The position numbers and the translations under genes were made by a program. Below, one piece after another: positions 23,395 to 31,195 of a stretch of DNA of 64,000 nucleotides. The notes beneath the pieces were generated by a model. It did not search any database and was not told the DNA's origin. It saw only the letters and a program-made list of their open reading frames with translations. Origin of the DNA: Candidatus Bathyarchaeota archaeon (lineage in GTDB: Archaea > Thermoproteota > Bathyarchaeia > Bathyarchaeales > Bathycorpusculaceae); the NCBI GenBank assembly GCA_026014585.1, contig JAOZIA010000002.1, positions 169,677-233,676 of the forward strand, in the 5' to 3' direction. The number at the start of each line of letters is the position of its first letter. The first letter of the stretch is position 1.

Positions 23395-23886
23395 TTGGTG
23401 AATTTTTTGCCCAAGAAAAAGAAGAAGACTTGGCAAGAAAAACTCAATGACGCAAATGGCTTGCCTAAAGTGGAGCAAATTCCTGACCGTTTAGCATCTA
23501 AATGGGGAACAGGAACAATCGTTATTCCTGCGCCAACCGAAGTAAACCAACTCATGAAAAAAGTACCTAAAGGCAAACTAACAACCATAAACGAAATCCG
23601 CCTAGCCCTCGCCCAAAAGCACAGCGCCACCATTGCCTGCCCGATAACTACAGGAATTTTCAGTTGGGTCTCCGCGCATGCTGCAGAAGAACAGCGTCAA
23701 TTGGGGCAAGAGGATATTACGCCGTATTGGAGAACCCTCAAAACAGGCGGAGTCGTGAACGAGAAGTATCCGGGCGGCGTAGAGAAGCAAAAGGTGTTGC
23801 TGGAGCAGGAAGGGCACAACGTGATGGCTAAAGGCAAAAACTTTAAGGTTAAAAATTATGAAAAAGCCCTTGCCAAGTTAGAGTAG
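23395..23886 (+). CDS. MGMT-like (alkyltransferase-like) protein
   Basis: 163-residue protein with a methylguanine-methyltransferase-like DNA-binding domain: VPKGKLTTINEIRLALAQKHSATIACPITTGIFSWVSAHAAEE followed by PYWRTLKTGGVVNEKYPGG. The classic PCHR active site is replaced by ACPITTGIF, a variant seen in a widespread small family annotated as MGMT family. It probably recognises alkylated bases, but transfer activity is unproven. The N-terminus is a Lys-rich stretch. Starts TTG 23395, GTG 23398 and TTG 23407 are all possible. Its end overlaps the convergent HAD-kinase gene by nine bases. Confidence 0.72.
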   Translation: MVNFLPKKKKKTWQEKLNDANGLPKVEQIPDRLASKWGTGTIVIPAPTEVNQLMKKVPKGKLTTINEIRLALAQKHSATIACPITTGIFSWVSAHAAEEQRQLGQEDITPYWRTLKTGGVVNEKYPGGVEKQKVLLEQEGHNVMAKGKNFKVKNYEKALAKLE

Positions 23887-25122
23887 TAAGGTCAAAAAGA
23901 GCCCTGTTGAAACGGGAATCACAATATTATCGTTAAGGGGCAGCGGTAAAGATTCAATTGCCATGGCAAACGCTGCACCAGCCAATGCGAAAAGCGGCGG
24001 TACAAAAAAGGTTCCTGCTAAGAAAGCAAAAAAGAACCCTGATAAGGTGCCAGCTAAAGTTTTACCCTTGTTATACGGTATACGTTTTCCAAAGATGCCC
24101 CCAAAAATTGATGCGGTGCTATCGCCAAGTGCAAATATTGCAATCGCAGCTCCGCTTGCGTATGAGGGGAACAAGAGCAGGGTAAGCAAGATTCCCGTTG
24201 CAAAGTAGAGTGGAGCAGCAACAAAACCGTAAAGTTCAATCTGTGAAGCCGCATGACGAGTTATACTGGAAATCAGAGGCAGATTCCGTTTGCCTAAACG
24301 TGAAAGCTCCGAAATTAAATACACCAAAGAAACCGCAAGAATCATACCCACAGTTGCATATAACCCGATTAAATCAACGATGACGGGAATAAAAAATCCT
24401 GCCGCGTGAATGTTTTCGCGTATCATTTCGTTTGCGGATGGAAAACGCCAACGAACACGTTGCCCATCGATAACTGGCAAAAGTGAGGCAAGCTTGCCCG
24501 TTACAACATTGTCGGCTTTTATTCTTAAGAGAGAGTCAGGGTGGAAAGCGATTTTTTGGACGTTTGGCAGAAAAAGACATGAGTTATTTCGGTCATCTGT
24601 AATTACAACTGCAGTATTTTGTGGCAGTGATTGGATGTTTAGAAGTTTTTGGCAGATTTCCAGTTTTCCATTTGATTTAATTACGTCACCGCTGATTTGG
24701 CCAGTTATGGCGTCACCGTTAACTTCTAAGTCAATTCCGAAAGCGTCATCAGCGCCGATGTTATCCGCTAATTTTCTAACTAGAAAAGTAGGCACCCCCG
24801 AGCTAATCAAAACAATCCGGAATTTACGCAGTTTCAGCTCTTCCATGAAACTTCGCAGTAACGGCGTTGCAGGAATATCTTGAAAAATTTGTTCCATGGT
24901 AGCGATTTTTGCGCCTTTTAAATTTTTGAAAATTTGCCTTAAAGAAAATTCCAGTCTAAGCAGGCTTACGCCGTATAGAAAACCGATAATGCAGACTTTT
25001 AGTAGTGTCCAGACGCTTTTGCTTTTTGCTACTTCAAAAAAGAAGCGGTTTTTGGGAATCAGCACTCCTTCAACGTCGAAAATTGCAACTCTACCCGCGT
25101 CCGCTCTACTCATTGACTTCAC
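23878..25122 (-). CDS. Fusion of HAD phosphatase and dolichol/phytol-kinase-like membrane enzyme
   Basis: 414 residues with two halves. Residues about 10-215 are a serine-phosphatase-type HAD domain: motif I FDVEGVL (Glu in place of the usual second Asp), motif II LISSG, a Lys in the SNGKLEICQ region, motif IV ITDDRNNS. Residues about 235-414 are membrane-embedded and resemble the CTP-dependent dolichol/phytol/diacylglycerol kinase family: ELSRLGKRNLP, then GDSTASIFGGIFGKRIPYNKGKTLAG and the closing ESLPLPLNDNIVIP. The pair could interconvert a polyprenol and its phosphate for lipid or glycan carriers. The combination is uncommon. Divided function is inference. Confidence 0.78.
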   Translation of the reverse strand: MKSMSRADAGRVAIFDVEGVLIPKNRFFFEVAKSKSVWTLLKVCIIGFLYGVSLLRLEFSLRQIFKNLKGAKIATMEQIFQDIPATPLLRSFMEELKLRKFRIVLISSGVPTFLVRKLADNIGADDAFGIDLEVNGDAITGQISGDVIKSNGKLEICQKLLNIQSLPQNTAVVITDDRNNSCLFLPNVQKIAFHPDSLLRIKADNVVTGKLASLLPVIDGQRVRWRFPSANEMIRENIHAAGFFIPVIVDLIGLYATVGMILAVSLVYLISELSRLGKRNLPLISSITRHAASQIELYGFVAAPLYFATGILLTLLLFPSYASGAAIAIFALGDSTASIFGGIFGKRIPYNKGKTLAGTLSGFFFAFLAGTFFVPPLFALAGAAFAMAIESLPLPLNDNIVIPVSTGLFLTLLL

Positions 25123-25187: not shown

Positions 25188-26522
25188 TCAACTGTTCGGG
25201 CTACACTGATGCTTCTTATTCTGTAACTCTAAGGGGCAACCGCCACCACAAACCTGCAATTGTCCACAATCCTCACATTTAGGCGGCGCAAACCCTCTGC
25301 TACGAAGCTTCCGCGCCAAAGGATTGTTCCAGATTTTCTCCCACGACTCAGATAATATGTTACCTAAGCTTTCAAAGTAGCTTTGACAGGGGTAAACATC
25401 CCCGTTTGGACCTACACACGCCGTAATCATCGCAGCAGTGCAAGATTTCACGCCCAAACCAAACTGCAACGGGTCAAACTGACAGTACTGCGTGGGCGTG
25501 TACCACAAAAACTTCAACCCCAACAGGTTTGCTTTGTCACGAATTTGAGGCAAAAGTATCTTCAAATCGTCCACAGTTAAGGCGAATTGTTCACTGGCAT
25601 CGTTAGCCCTACCCGAATAGATTAGGCTGTTGCAACCAAAAGCGTCCACTCCAAGGCTCTTGATAAAGTCAATGGTTACCAAAAAATCGGCACTATTTTG
25701 TTTGCTTAGCGTGGTATTGGTTGAAACGTAAATTTGTGATTGCGCCGCGTTTCTTATGCCCGCAACGGTTTCAGCCCAGCTTCCCACTGCACCCGTCATT
25801 TTATCATGAACATCAGCTTTATGCGATTCAAGGGTAATTTGGACAAAATCCAGCCCTGACCGCTCAAGCAACCCCACGTAATCTTTGTCTTTGAGGCGTC
25901 GCCCATTTGAGATAAGCCCAGTCACTAAGCCCTTATCCTGAGCATACAGTAGCAACTCGGGTAAATCCTCGCGTAGGGTGGGTTCTCCACCTGTAAAAGT
26001 TAAAATGAACACACCGACCGCGCTGAGTTTATCGATAACCTGCTTCCACTGCACCGTTGATAATTCTTCAGTTTTGTGTGGTCCTCCCGCGTAGCAGTGT
26101 ACGCAGTTGTTTTGGCACTGGAAAGTTAAAGCCAAATCCATCCTAAGCGGGGCGGCATACTGGTATGTGAAAGGTTCTTCCTTTTCAATTTCCAAAAACG
26201 TGACGGGGTCAATTTTTTCGGTTTGCGCCAGCGTGCTGATGTTGTAGACCAGTTTTTGGTAGTCATCTTCCGCAGTTTTGGCGTTTACACGGTACATTTT
26301 ACCAATTTTTTTAACCACTTCATTTTGTGTTAATCCTTGCATGAAGTAGTATGCATAAGCGGTTGCGGTCTGGTTTAGGTGCAGAACAGTGTTGGCATTA
26401 ATCACCATAACGCCCCGACCACCAGCTTCAACTCTAAGTTGCAGTGACATGCCCGCGAATTTGTCTTTTCCTCGGTACATGAAGCGTCCAGTGGGAATTT
26501 TTTCTTTTTTAAACAGACTCAT
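25188..26522 (-). CDS. Radical SAM/SPASM enzyme with PqqD-like N-terminal domain
   Basis: 444-residue predicted peptide-modifying enzyme. Residues about 25-105 form a PqqD-like recognition domain (INANTVLHLNQTATAYAYYFM, then QNEVVKKIGKMYRVNAKTAEDDY). The radical SAM cluster motif CxxxCxxC is C136-C140-C143 (TFQCQNNCVHC), followed by TGGEPTLR. A SPASM-type C-terminus holds further Cys in ACVGPNGDVYPCQSY and CEDCGQLQVCGGGCPLE. The ATG at 26522 overlaps the upstream stop codon (TAATG). A longer in-frame ORF reaching 26600 is not credible because its extra residues are the Cys-Ala tail read out of frame. The neighbour's Cys-rich tail is its probable substrate (inference). Confidence 0.9.
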   Translation of the reverse strand: MSLFKKEKIPTGRFMYRGKDKFAGMSLQLRVEAGGRGVMVINANTVLHLNQTATAYAYYFMQGLTQNEVVKKIGKMYRVNAKTAEDDYQKLVYNISTLAQTEKIDPVTFLEIEKEEPFTYQYAAPLRMDLALTFQCQNNCVHCYAGGPHKTEELSTVQWKQVIDKLSAVGVFILTFTGGEPTLREDLPELLLYAQDKGLVTGLISNGRRLKDKDYVGLLERSGLDFVQITLESHKADVHDKMTGAVGSWAETVAGIRNAAQSQIYVSTNTTLSKQNSADFLVTIDFIKSLGVDAFGCNSLIYSGRANDASEQFALTVDDLKILLPQIRDKANLLGLKFLWYTPTQYCQFDPLQFGLGVKSCTAAMITACVGPNGDVYPCQSYFESLGNILSESWEKIWNNPLARKLRSRGFAPPKCEDCGQLQVCGGGCPLELQNKKHQCSPNS

Positions 26523-28144
26523 TAGTGCACACCTCCACCCGCACAGGCACAAGCACAAGACACACACGCACACGCGCAAGCACACGCTGCACAGGCGCAA
26601 ACGCAGTCGGCTTTGTGATGGGCTGGTTCATGGCTGGTTTTTGGCGGAGGCGAAACGATGGCGTTGGCGAATTTTTCAAGGTTTACCACGATGCCGTTTG
26701 CGGTTCCTTCCAGGGCGGTTGCGACGTTGTTAGCGAATTCTGCCCCGGGAATTGCGGCTGGTTGTGGGGTTTGTGTGGGTGATTGGATGTTTGGGTGAAT
26801 TGTTGGGTGAGGGTGATAGATGGTGTAGTTGTACCACCACCAGAACCACAGCGGGTTTGGCATGAAAACTCGGTTTTGAAAAGCGGTCTCAGTTTTGGTT
26901 TTCTGCTCGGGGTCAAGCATAAGCCACAGTAGCTGCTCATCGTAAGCGTTGGATGCCAACTCAACGGTTCCAGCCTGCGTCACCTGAGTCCATGCCTCCG
27001 CTACAATTCTGCGGTAATAGTCCACTGTGTCTTTTCGACTAAACCCCTGCATTTTCTGCTCAACCGTTTCCTCCAAAAACGTGACGGCAGCCGCAAGCTT
27101 TTCCTCATCCAATGTGCCATCAGATTTTAGCGCGCCTAAGAAGTCAATTTCGTAGTAGCGCAGTGGCGTGTCTTTGGGCCCAATTTTGTCTTCGTATGGC
27201 GGGAGAACTTGGAGCTTTAAGGGTTTTGCTTGTTGTGCCCAGACTGCTTTTTTCTTAAGCAGGCTGTAGAGAATTTCGGTGACGATTTGGGTAGGTTTTA
27301 GCCCAAGCAGATATGATGCTTCAGGAGCGGTTAAGCCACGTTTTATGCCAAGGGTTTCCATGCTGATTTTCGGAGACGAATACTTAGCTTTACGGGCAGC
27401 ACCTATCGCAATAATTACTGCGATAACTGCAAAAAATACAGCCCCAATAATAATGAAAAGGGTAAATGCGTCAAATCCAAAACCATCAGACGACGGATTA
27501 TAATCTGGCAGATACCTGCTGGGAAAAGAAACGCCTAAAAGCCACTGCTCATTTGCCTGCAAAACAGGTTTTTCCCAGTAAACCGCCAATCTACCCTCAA
27601 CCGTAGAGGTGCCATTGTAGAAAGCGTCAGCAGGAGTTTTAACCTCATCCACGGGGACATCTGGCGGCAGAACGATTTGAACACGAACATCACTAATTGG
27701 CACAGACATCCATTCTGGCGCGAATTGCATGCCAAAATTGCCCGGGTTTGTAGTGTCATTGTAAATCATTCCTGCGACGTTGGTGGTTAGGGTGAACCAG
27801 ATGCTTTCCCCAGCGGTCAGAGGCTCATTTAATTTTACGTTTACTGCATAGTTTGAGCCGCTACTTGCATCGCTTGTTTGCAGTGTGTTTCCGTACTGGT
27901 CAAGAGCGGTGCCTCGTGTGAAGTCGGCTTTGGGCTGTCCAATATCGATGGAGCTGATTTGGTTTCCTGAATGCAATGTTAATGTTAGATTGTATATTAG
28001 GTCAATTGTGCCGTCTTGGTTAATGAAAATCTGTGCCCATTGATGGTCAAAACTGTACACTCTATCCTGCGCATCAGCAAACCCAACCATGCACAAGGCA
28101 GCTAAAACAAGAATAACTACCAAAACAAACGCTCGTTTTACCAT
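26522..28144 (-). CDS. DUF2207-like membrane protein with C-terminal Cys-Ala repeat tail
   Basis: 540 residues. Signal peptide (1-25), predicted outside beta domain (about 27-215, with sequons such as NLT and NGT), one membrane helix (227-250), then a cytosolic region including a helical LTAPEASYLLGLKPTQIVTEILYSLLKKK segment, an aromatic/His/Pro linker (FWWWYNYTIYHPHPTIHP) and a tail. The last 27 residues hold ten Cys, mostly alternating with Ala, ending GGGVH. Topology puts the tail in the cytosol, in reach of the coupled radical SAM enzyme. The DUF2207-like call rests on the N-terminal domain and single TM helix. The start overlaps the upstream gene by seven bases. Confidence 0.82.
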   Translation of the reverse strand: MVKRAFVLVVILVLAALCMVGFADAQDRVYSFDHQWAQIFINQDGTIDLIYNLTLTLHSGNQISSIDIGQPKADFTRGTALDQYGNTLQTSDASSGSNYAVNVKLNEPLTAGESIWFTLTTNVAGMIYNDTTNPGNFGMQFAPEWMSVPISDVRVQIVLPPDVPVDEVKTPADAFYNGTSTVEGRLAVYWEKPVLQANEQWLLGVSFPSRYLPDYNPSSDGFGFDAFTLFIIIGAVFFAVIAVIIAIGAARKAKYSSPKISMETLGIKRGLTAPEASYLLGLKPTQIVTEILYSLLKKKAVWAQQAKPLKLQVLPPYEDKIGPKDTPLRYYEIDFLGALKSDGTLDEEKLAAAVTFLEETVEQKMQGFSRKDTVDYYRRIVAEAWTQVTQAGTVELASNAYDEQLLWLMLDPEQKTKTETAFQNRVFMPNPLWFWWWYNYTIYHPHPTIHPNIQSPTQTPQPAAIPGAEFANNVATALEGTANGIVVNLEKFANAIVSPPPKTSHEPAHHKADCVCACAACACACACVSCACACAGGGVH

Positions 28145-28491
28145 TTTGGTTCCTCAGTAACTTCAAATGTTGTGCCGCAGTAAGGACAAGTCGCGTAGGG
28201 AACACCTGAGACAATTTTGATTTTGTTGGCGTCAACCGAGGCGGAGCAGTTGGGGCACTTAATTGCGGCACCTGCCATTTTCCCTGAAAGCTCAAGATGC
28301 TGAATAACTGTTTTTGGTTTGCGTTCTATGTAATAGACCGCTAAAATCAACACTAACCCCACCGCGAAAAGTATGCCGCTGGTTGCCAGCCTTGACGTTG
28401 TTGCCACCACGGAGGCGGCGAGCGCAAAAATTACTGCAAAAAACAATGCGATACATGCTGCAATGGCTCCCAGCACTGAGAAGATTTTCAT
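28138..28491 (-). CDS. Two-helix membrane protein with C-terminal zinc ribbon
   Basis: 117 residues: two hydrophobic helices (about 3-27 and 36-54), a basic turn (YIERKPKTV), and a cytosolic zinc ribbon with CPNC and CPYC knuckles 20-odd residues apart. Its stop overlaps the ATG of the Cys-tail protein (ATGGTAA), so it is the first gene of the three-gene operon reaching 25188. It might scaffold the tail or the enzyme at the membrane; there is no direct evidence for a function. Confidence 0.78.
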   Translation of the reverse strand: MKIFSVLGAIAACIALFFAVIFALAASVVATTSRLATSGILFAVGLVLILAVYYIERKPKTVIQHLELSGKMAGAAIKCPNCSASVDANKIKIVSGVPYATCPYCGTTFEVTEEPKW

Positions 28492-29479: not shown

Positions 29480-29548
29480 GGCTGGTTCACTTAGGAGTTG
29501 GGCAGTGAAACATATAAGCAAATTCATAACAAGAAGATATCGAGGCTT

Positions 29549-30688
29549 ATGCTAACCCAAAATGAAGCCGTAAACAGCATCCTGCAACCCATCATTGGAC
29601 CATGGTACACTTCGCTTGAAAACCCACAGAAGGCACAAGAACAAGTTTTAGCTGAACTCTTAACGAAATACGCACAAACCGATTACGGCAAAACCCACAA
29701 TGCAGCAAACACAAAAACCATCAGCGAGTACCAGAAAAACTTTCCAATCATAAACTACGCAGACATGCAGCCCTATCTTGCAAAGGTGAAAAAGGGCAAT
29801 TTTAGGGCTTTTTTGCCTGAAGCACCTGACTGCTGGGTTATGACGCGGGGTTCAACAGGAAAAGCCAAGGTTTTGCCAGCGACGCCCACGCATCTGAAGC
29901 AGATTTTTACCTGCGGCGCAAGAGGCTTAATCAATTACGCGCTGAAAAAGGAGAATTTTGAGGTGTTCTCAGGGGTTATTTTGAATTTGAATTTTCCCTC
30001 CAGCGTGCACGTGATGGATCAGAACGGCAAAGAAGTCACTTACGGGTACAGTTCAGGAACGTACGCACGGCTAAACCCAATGTTTGACCGTGTGAGCCTA
30101 TTGCCAAGGCAAGAGGAAATTGATGCTGTGGGCTCAGGGATTGGAAGGGCTGATTGGGAGAAACGTTTTGAGTTGGTTTATCAGAAGGCAAAAAACCAAG
30201 ATGTTACGGCAACCATGGGAGTTACACCCGTAATTTTATCGTTTGCCCGTTACATGCAGCACAAACACGGCAAAAAACCCGCTGACCTCTGGAAGTTGCA
30301 GGCGATGTTTTGCACCAGCGTTCGCAAAATCCATTTCAAGTATGGTCCTGTTTTGAGGAAGTATTTTGGTGATGTGCCTATTGTAGAGATGTATTCGGCT
30401 ACTGAGGGCGTTTTTGGGCAGCAACTGGATGATTTGCCTTATATTTCGCCTAATTATGACGCGTACCTTTTTGAAGTGACAACCGGCAGGGGCGTTAAGA
30501 TGTTGTATGAGTTGAAACGTGGTGAATGGGGTAGGCTGGTTATTTCAAGCTGCATGTTCCCACGCTACGAAATCGGCGACATGATTGAGTCGGCAGGTAA
30601 AAATTATTTCCGTGTTTTCGGAAGAAACAAGCCCCTTGTATTGCTGGAGCACCGTCTGTACCGAGCCGTGGTGGGCTGGCTTATTTAA
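29549..30688 (+). CDS. GH3-like acyl-adenylate ligase family protein
   Basis: 379 residues resembling the GH3 auxin-responsive family of adenylating acid-amido synthetases. Matches include the N-terminal PWYTSLENPQKAQEQVLAELL, TDYGKTHNA, the phosphate loop MTRGSTGKAK (29841-29870), the adenylate motif EMYSATEGVFGQQ, and a late YEIGDMIE. The protein stops soon after FRVFGRNKPLVLL, so the C-terminal swinging domain of plant and bacterial GH3 enzymes appears to be missing. The acid substrate is unknown. ATG 29549 gives MLTQNEAV; an in-frame TTG at 29498 would add 17 residues within the divergent e2b2 promoter. Confidence 0.78.
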   Translation: MLTQNEAVNSILQPIIGPWYTSLENPQKAQEQVLAELLTKYAQTDYGKTHNAANTKTISEYQKNFPIINYADMQPYLAKVKKGNFRAFLPEAPDCWVMTRGSTGKAKVLPATPTHLKQIFTCGARGLINYALKKENFEVFSGVILNLNFPSSVHVMDQNGKEVTYGYSSGTYARLNPMFDRVSLLPRQEEIDAVGSGIGRADWEKRFELVYQKAKNQDVTATMGVTPVILSFARYMQHKHGKKPADLWKLQAMFCTSVRKIHFKYGPVLRKYFGDVPIVEMYSATEGVFGQQLDDLPYISPNYDAYLFEVTTGRGVKMLYELKRGEWGRLVISSCMFPRYEIGDMIESAGKNYFRVFGRNKPLVLLEHRLYRAVVGWLI

Positions 30689-31074
30689 GATATGAGCGGG
30701 CGAGGGTTTCGTTTTCTAGCGGTCCGCGAGACAATCAAGGCTACAATAAGGATAACTATTCCAACGGTTAGCAAAGTTATGGCGCCAATCACGTTTGCAG
30801 GTATAAAGTTTAGAAAACTCAGGATAGCAAATCCGCCGATAATAATCATCACTAACCCCCCGATTAACCAGCCGACATAACTGTACTCGCCTTTTTCATG
30901 TTTTTCGCCTTTTTCGTTATGCTCATTTTTCTCGTTTTTTTCTGCTTTCTCATTTCGGTAAGGCTGTGGCGGAGCAGGCGGAATTGGCGCTTGCCCTTTC
31001 AGTGACGCCCCGCATTTGGGGCAGAACATCATGTTTTCGTCGACCTTGTTGCCACATTTAGGACAGAATGACAT
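30685..31074 (-). CDS. Zinc-ribbon membrane protein
   Basis: 129 residues. The N-terminal zinc ribbon has CPKC twice (SFCPKCGNKVDENMMFCPKCGASLKG). A Pro-rich piece and a highly charged Glu/Lys/His/Asn repeat (about 45-65) link it to two membrane helices (about 72-92 and 99-120) and a basic end. This is a common archaeal layout without an assigned function. I chose the ATG at 31074 (MSFCPKCG) over 31089. It overlaps the convergent GH3-like gene by four bases. Confidence 0.75.
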   Translation of the reverse strand: MSFCPKCGNKVDENMMFCPKCGASLKGQAPIPPAPPQPYRNEKAEKNEKNEHNEKGEKHEKGEYSYVGWLIGGLVMIIIGGFAILSFLNFIPANVIGAITLLTVGIVILIVALIVSRTARKRNPRPLIS

Positions 31075-31195
31075 AATTTTTGACCCCATTTATTTTTAGC
31101 AAGTTTAAGTATTTAAAATATTCATTGAACGCTTGTAATGAAAAAATTTATTTTCAAGAAGAATAACTAGCAAATGACTACGTCAGGAAGAAAAA

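Follow-up and report, generated by a model that had tools for sequence, protein, structure and literature searches.

A stretch of 64,000 nucleotides from a Candidatus Bathyarchaeota archaeon (contig JAOZIA010000002.1; hereafter, the window) carries at positions 25188–28491 a minus-strand operon of three genes. These encode a small zinc-ribbon membrane protein, a DUF2207-type membrane protein that ends in a tail of Cys and Ala residues, and a radical S-adenosylmethionine (SAM)/SPASM enzyme with a PqqD-like domain, or RiPP recognition element (RRE; RiPP, ribosomally synthesized and post-translationally modified peptide). Tail and enzyme co-occur in nearly all tail-bearing genomes of the Bathyarchaeia and Chloroflexota, and the tail is very likely the enzyme's substrate. 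Our confidence in the enzyme–tail pair is high, whereas our confidence in its function is low. As an explanation of the whole, we lean towards a dedicated maturation cassette, in which the tail is modified in the cytosol, most likely as Cys thioethers, and the product remains tethered to the membrane.

Co-occurrence of the tail and the enzyme

Using the enzyme only, we scanned ~85,000 species genomes, recovered 378 relatives and examined the best 80 loci. Forty-three of these come from Bathyarchaeia-type archaea and 37 from other organisms, mostly Chloroflexota (Anaerolineae) together with Coatesbacteria, Zymogenus, Edwardsbacteria, UBP2 and one Thermoplasmata. A tail gene lies within the enzyme locus in 73 of the 80 (41/43 archaeal, 32/37 others), usually directly upstream. 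Seven loci have no tail nearby. For five of them (L036, L044, L047, L058 and L061) the tail is encoded elsewhere in the genome, and a sixth (L034) belongs to a partly masked assembly, with a variant tail beside an enzyme fragment read in G058, probably the same genome; the seventh, L070, is taken up below. Tail and enzyme are on different contigs in two genomes (G257 and G258, with loci L058 and L061), and the unlinked tail genes in these two speak against mere hitch-hiking of neighbours.

Presence and absence across whole groups gave the same picture. Among 257 Bathyarchaeia genomes, the exact tail pattern was found in 47, the enzyme in 72 and both in 46 (p = 6e-31). The sole genome with an exact tail and no full enzyme, G184, has an N-terminal fragment of the enzyme gene directly after the tail. 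Enzyme-bearing genomes without the exact pattern, where inspected, have variant tails (with A to V and G to S or H substitutions) adjoining the enzyme, except in broken or truncated assemblies. When the body of the membrane protein was searched without its tail, it was present in 76 Bathyarchaeia genomes, five of which have no full enzyme: G184 again, three in which the genes run into contig ends (G069, G074 and G167), and, as an apparent exception, G112. For the Chloroflexota, 18 of 251 genomes have the tail, and the same 18 have an enzyme >50% identical (Fisher p = 8e-28); the remaining 233 have neither. The tail occurs in just one of 194 Thermoplasmatota genomes, which looks like transfer. 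A reversed control pattern gave no matches in all genomes searched, and hence the tail is not a chance pattern.

The initial annotation had proposed asking whether tail and enzyme co-occur across genomes, and had inferred that the substrate is the tail of a membrane protein rather than a free peptide. They do co-occur, in 46 of 47 tail-bearing Bathyarchaeia genomes and 18 of 18 in Chloroflexota, two genomes having them unlinked; nowhere near as many tails were found without the enzyme as with it. The claim about the substrate is very probably right, based on co-occurrence and adjacency.

A second class of enzyme and tail is seen in two Chloroflexota genomes, G277 and G395, which hold the two other enzyme relatives from this phylum with the catalytic Cys kept. 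These enzymes are 36–37% identical to that of the window and 34% identical to the one at L073, and they adjoin related membrane proteins of DUF2207 type with CHSACHSACHSAC and CHDA repeats at their ends; G277 has both enzyme/tail classes. A switch of enzyme class is therefore matched by a switch of tail type, as expected of enzyme and substrate. We left aside two other hits of the Cys-His pattern: the one in G292 looks like a simple DNA repeat, and the one in G319 is a lone match. In this second class, the Chloroflexota DUF2207-type proteins at L135:4049-5794 (−) and L133:5590-7308 (−) have 40–50-residue terminal repeats of Cys-His-Ser/Asp-Ala, and each lies next to a related RRE–radical SAM–SPASM enzyme followed by a coiled-coil gene.

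Two further sequences may be either contamination or divergent second systems. One is an extra tail protein with a CVGC variant (G125:C19, L104), and the other is an additional enzyme copy that lacks a tail within range (G217:C69, L102).

The tail is much better conserved than the body. In 40 aligned proteins, the tail core shared by archaea and bacteria has a mean conservation of 0.94, compared with 0.49 in the outer and 0.58 in the cytosolic domain. Each bacterial tail that was recovered encodes CACACAGCACACAG, and across 14 codons of 32 bacterial tails, comparison of all pairs gave 3900 synonymous and 0 amino-acid-changing codon differences.

Organization of the operon and its proteins

Features of the operon and of homologous loci are listed in Table 1. 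The three genes, and the junctions of seven bases and one base that had been claimed for them, are exact in the sequence: genes 1 and 2 overlap in ATGGTAA, and genes 2 and 3 in TAATG. An alternative open reading frame (ORF) of 470 aa for the enzyme, with a TTG start, was judged spurious, the homologues beginning near the ATG at 26522.

Table 1. Positions of the operon genes, their domains and accessory genes, in the window unless a locus is named
Feature	Residues	Position	Strand	Basis or remark
Zinc-ribbon small membrane protein gene, 117 aa		28138..28491	−	First operon gene
Cys-Ala-tailed membrane protein of DUF2207 type, 540 aa		26522..28144	−	Proposed substrate
Signal sequence	1-26	28067..28144	−	AlphaFold2 (AF2) helix 2-20, hydropathy
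Extracytosolic beta-sandwich, DUF2207 N-terminal domain	27-208	27521..28066	−	AF2; PF09972 in orthologues
Single transmembrane helix	224-250	27395..27475	−	AF2, basic-residue/hydropathy analysis
Cytosolic winged-helix and helical domain	271-445	26810..27334	−	AF2
Conserved helical segment, invariant F470, A471, F492	463-496	26657..26758	−	AF2, conservation
Cys tail, CVCACAACACACACVSCACACAGGGVH, 10 Cys	514-540	26525..26605	−	
Tail core common to archaea and bacteria, CACACxxCACACAGGG type	521-538	26531..26584	−	
PqqD-like (RRE) radical SAM/SPASM enzyme, 444 aa		25188..26522	−	
PqqD-like recognition domain	12-100	26223..26489	−	AF2 strands then three helices; PF05402
CX3CX2C radical SAM cluster motif	136-143	26094..26117	−	Invariant
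SPASM domain, Cys 361, 369, 379, 416, 419, 425, 429, 441	361-441	25200..25442	−	
Class I SAM methyltransferase		L073:8582-9352, L062:7221-8042, L048:7332-8111	+	
Pseudo-radical-SAM paralogue		L073:7415-8581, L068:7329-8483, others	+	

In the AF2 model of the 540-aa protein, a signal helix is followed by an outer beta-sandwich (residues 29–208), the transmembrane helix and a winged-helix/helical part; about 290 residues come after the membrane helix, and the tail (residues 512–540, disordered in the model) is last. The initial annotation had described an exoprotein with one membrane helix and with ten Cys, mostly alternating with Ala, in its last 27 residues, and both features are borne out by the model and the sequence. 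Its label 'DUF2207-like' is likewise correct. The window protein itself has no Pfam match, yet an orthologue in G084 passes the gathering cut-off of PF09972 (27.7 bits versus 24.4, E 3.8e-6), and 5 of 40 family members match that profile (E up to 0.1; best 1.6e-5). An origin from TIGR04222 proteins is unsupported, since 1 of 40 members matches, at E = 0.16. For the outer domain, the best Foldseek matches, all partial, are to ribophorin I of oligosaccharyltransferase (OST) and to the N-terminal domain of M1 peptidases. In an 851-aa protein at L176:3442-5997 (−), a relative of this domain is flanked by a protein kinase and an FGE-sulfatase domain.

The order of signal helix, outer domain and single membrane helix, together with an excess of basic residues after the helix relative to before it in 33 of 40 homologues, predicts a cytosolic Cys tail; we hold this location to be quite probable, and it would allow the enzyme to reach the tail without export. 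On the same side, conservation is 0.52–0.65 across residues 271–432. Further along, the helical segment at 463–496 is more conserved (0.60) than the stretches flanking it (0.42 and 0.44), and it is separated from the tail by a variable linker of 21–30 residues. We regard this segment as a candidate leader-like recognition element. In this view, the end of the membrane protein would be arranged like a RiPP precursor, with the helix as leader, the variable stretch as linker and the tail as core.

The enzyme of the window matches Radical_SAM (PF04055, 2e-22) and SPASM (PF13186, 8e-12). Cys 136, 140 and 143 of the cluster motif are invariant in 44 homologues, PF13186 is found in all 44 family members, and the SPASM Cys pattern is complete in the window enzyme, the last Cys (441) being absent from many bacterial homologues. 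The annotated CxxxCxxC and SPASM enzyme is therefore upheld by motif, Cys pattern and Pfam matches. The PqqD-like domain that had been claimed is weak in the window enzyme (PF05402 below cut-off, E = 0.14); it is backed by matches in 36 of the 44 family members (E up to 1, best 8e-8) and by the AF2 model (pLDDT 84, pTM 0.87), in which residues 12–100 form beta strands and then three helices in the PqqD-like order. By Foldseek, the enzyme fold resembles SkfB (2e-18), SuiB (3e-16) and CteB (4e-14), and SkfB is also the best match by hidden Markov model profile (1.6e-29). For the enzyme, every NCBIfam equivalog falls well short of its cut-off (best 141 bits versus 500), and none matches the membrane protein.

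Proposed maturation of the tail

RRE domains bind precursor peptides. We propose that the RRE–radical SAM–SPASM enzyme would dock in the cytosol on the C-terminal region of the membrane protein. The contact would probably be between the enzyme's PqqD-like domain and the conserved helix that precedes the tail, and the enzyme would act repeatedly along the alternating Cys and Ala residues. That it changes several of the Cys is probable, while for thioethers as the bonds formed we see about an even chance. In that case, the sulfur of a Cys would most likely be bonded to a carbon atom of a neighbour, in most cases Ala. The neighbour clusters of the loci include no conserved peptidase, protease or exporter and no second conserved candidate substrate, and with nothing conserved nearby to cleave or export it, the product would stay attached to the membrane protein at its cytosolic side. 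The zinc-ribbon protein would be a recurrent membrane partner, and a methyltransferase in bacteria and a pseudo-radical-SAM paralogue in many Chloroflexota probably join in the same modification. Candidate purposes are a metal site, a redox switch and a rigid, protease-proof cap.

Several points weigh against this proposal. L070 (genome G259) has the enzyme with no exact tail match and no other sign of a tail; here, as at L058 and L061, enzyme and methyltransferase lie together and the tail gene is not alongside. Tail Cys counts are both odd and even (7, 8 and 10) and so indicate no one simple pairing. SPASM enzymes also carry out epimerizations, C–C bond formation and oxidations, and CXC runs could themselves be metal ligands without any modification. 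The end product might not be the same in every group, because methyltransferase and pseudo-radical-SAM protein were found near none of the Bathyarchaeial loci examined. More generally, our evidence consists of genes, domains, co-occurrence, conservation and predicted topology, from which we infer the thioether chemistry and any metal-binding or redox role.

A somewhat unlikely alternative is that the enzyme modifies the tail by another chemistry, such as epimerization, C–C cross-links at Ala/Val, or Cys oxidation or heterocycles, with methylation following in bacteria. Of the 37 bacterial/Thermoplasmata loci, 27 include a class I SAM methyltransferase (in most of the others the flank is short), Ala would be an unusual acceptor, and many reactions are known within the SPASM family (PMC11002830). 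However, Cys is the most strictly kept residue of the tail, and the best relatives of the enzyme, named above, are mostly of the thioether kind. SkfB and CteB make Cys thioethers, although SuiB forms a C–C bond.

We think it unlikely that the tail binds metal in unmodified form, as a CXC site of the metallothionein kind, and that the enzyme is co-inherited and has another target. CXC runs bind soft metals, and a zinc-ribbon partner is present. But this idea sits poorly with the near-obligate co-occurrence, which extends to unlinked genes, and with the joint switch of enzyme class and tail type. It also has to contend with the peptide-recognition domain of the enzyme and with the lack of another conserved candidate substrate in the neighbourhood. 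The tail might also be a partner of the enzyme rather than its substrate, serving for membrane docking or iron-sulfur delivery and recruiting the enzyme to another target. Membrane tethering would fit recruitment, and so many Cys could hold a cluster, but a second conserved substrate is lacking, and a Cys repeat adjoining an RRE enzyme is how a substrate and its maturase are usually arranged, which makes this reading very unlikely. Least probable of all is a classical RiPP, with the membrane protein as a giant leader and the tail cut off and released: the genes do stand in the order precursor then maturase, as in RiPP clusters, yet no peptidase or transporter is conserved, and a leader with conserved outer and cytosolic domains of this size would be wasteful.

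A bolder version of the maturation cassette can be put forward tentatively. Membrane proteins across the domains of life would have cytosolic Cys-repeat tails, and a radical SAM enzyme dedicated to them would turn these into a tethered multi-thioether ladder, possibly with lanthionine-like Cys–Ala bonds made by a radical route. The ladder would serve as a new protein-bound metal or redox element at the membrane, in separate Cys-Ala and Cys-His-Ser-Ala types.

Gene neighbours and known systems

Zinc ribbon, tail protein and enzyme form a conserved operon that spans domains of life. The zinc-ribbon protein has two hydrophobic helices and then a C-terminal CPNC...CPYC, in keeping with the two-helix zinc ribbon first described for it. 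Clustering of ORFs of at least 90 aa placed it in 37 of 81 loci, from Bathyarchaeia, Chloroflexota, Coatesbacteria and Thermoplasmata; the window copy ends in TEEPKW, and among the members listed the end is E(E/D)P(K/T)W. Near the operon, the window encodes a second zinc-ribbon protein with membrane helices (30685..31089, −), which has a weak match to DUF2207_C (PF20990, 1.6e-4, below cut-off). At L177:3794-4923 (−), a zinc-ribbon protein ending in EQPKW is followed by a 236-aa protein consisting of a membrane helix and cytosolic domain only; this paralogous pair has no Cys tail, and its genome, G496, also has the full system.

The methyltransferase is treated as a bacterial addition because a search of ten Bathyarchaeia genomes gave weak matches only, which we read as generic methyltransferases. 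In many Chloroflexota, the active enzyme stands beside a paralogue that has the PqqD domain, lacks CX3CX2C and contains 0–3 Cys in total. These pseudo-radical-SAM proteins form one clade in a quick tree (support 100) and are perhaps recognition subunits. A lone one occurs in G355 (L134).

Downstream of the enzyme in the window lies a gene (23878..25122, −) for a HAD hydrolase domain fused to a membrane domain, dolichol/phytol kinase-like by eye, which is kept 3′ of the enzyme in 16 Bathyarchaeial loci. On the other side, 29498..30688 (+) encodes an archaeal GH3-family protein (PF03321, E = 3e-24).

Like DUF2207 (PF09972) proteins, the membrane protein has an outer beta domain and then a membrane helix; the Cys tail and maturase are additions here. 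Ordinary DUF2207 proteins have Gly-rich tails. The cassette resembles SkfB, CteB, AlbA and ThnB in its RRE, radical SAM barrel, auxiliary-cluster domain and neighbouring gene for a Cys-containing substrate. In those systems, however, the substrate is a short free peptide that undergoes cleavage and export, whereas the Cys repeat described here forms the C-terminal end of a membrane protein of 540 aa. The same size holds for the family: in 40 aligned homologues the partner is a membrane protein of about 540–580 aa with a signal sequence, unlike the short free precursors of sactipeptides and ranthipeptides. Ranthipeptides such as freyrasin, made by PapB, do contain repeated Cys-based thioethers made by SPASM enzymes, but these are Cys-to-Asp links in free peptides (PMC11002830), in contrast to a Cys-Ala alternation in a membrane protein.

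A large protein as probable substrate has a parallel in QhpD, a SPASM enzyme that makes thioether bridges in a ribosomally made protein subunit, QhpC (PMC8172795). QhpC is an enzyme subunit with Asp/Glu acceptors, whereas in the membrane-protein repeat tail the acceptors would be Ala. The nearest published idea concerns TIGR04222 membrane proteins with Cys-rich, low-complexity C-terminal tails, encoded next to MNIO (DUF692) enzymes (PMC12452194). Common to both is a Cys-tailed membrane protein beside a RiPP-type modifying enzyme. TIGR04222 tails are predicted to be periplasmic and are Gly/Ser-rich, whereas the tail described here is predicted to be cytosolic, and the enzyme superfamily differs: the adjacent enzyme is a radical SAM protein, and none of the identified conserved neighbour clusters is MNIO. 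In addition, the enzyme is missing from one third of TIGR04222 genomes, compared to nearly none for the Cys-Ala tail. What is new here is thus the enzyme superfamily and an association much tighter than in the TIGR04222/MNIO precedent. We found no description of the tail, of its pairing with the enzyme or of a link between DUF2207 and radical SAM proteins in the literature, which is weak evidence, as preprints and subscription papers lay outside the search.

Free peptides are the main products for which SPASM enzymes are known. In Bathyarchaeia and several bacterial phyla, one such enzyme is tied to a membrane protein at its predicted cytosolic end, where the tail is almost invariant. Modification of that tail would yield a cofactor or structural element bound to a protein, not a natural product, and would give a handle on the poorly understood DUF2207 proteins. 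The pairing also offers an enzyme–substrate pair known from sequence, for which two tail classes with two enzyme classes form a natural control set.

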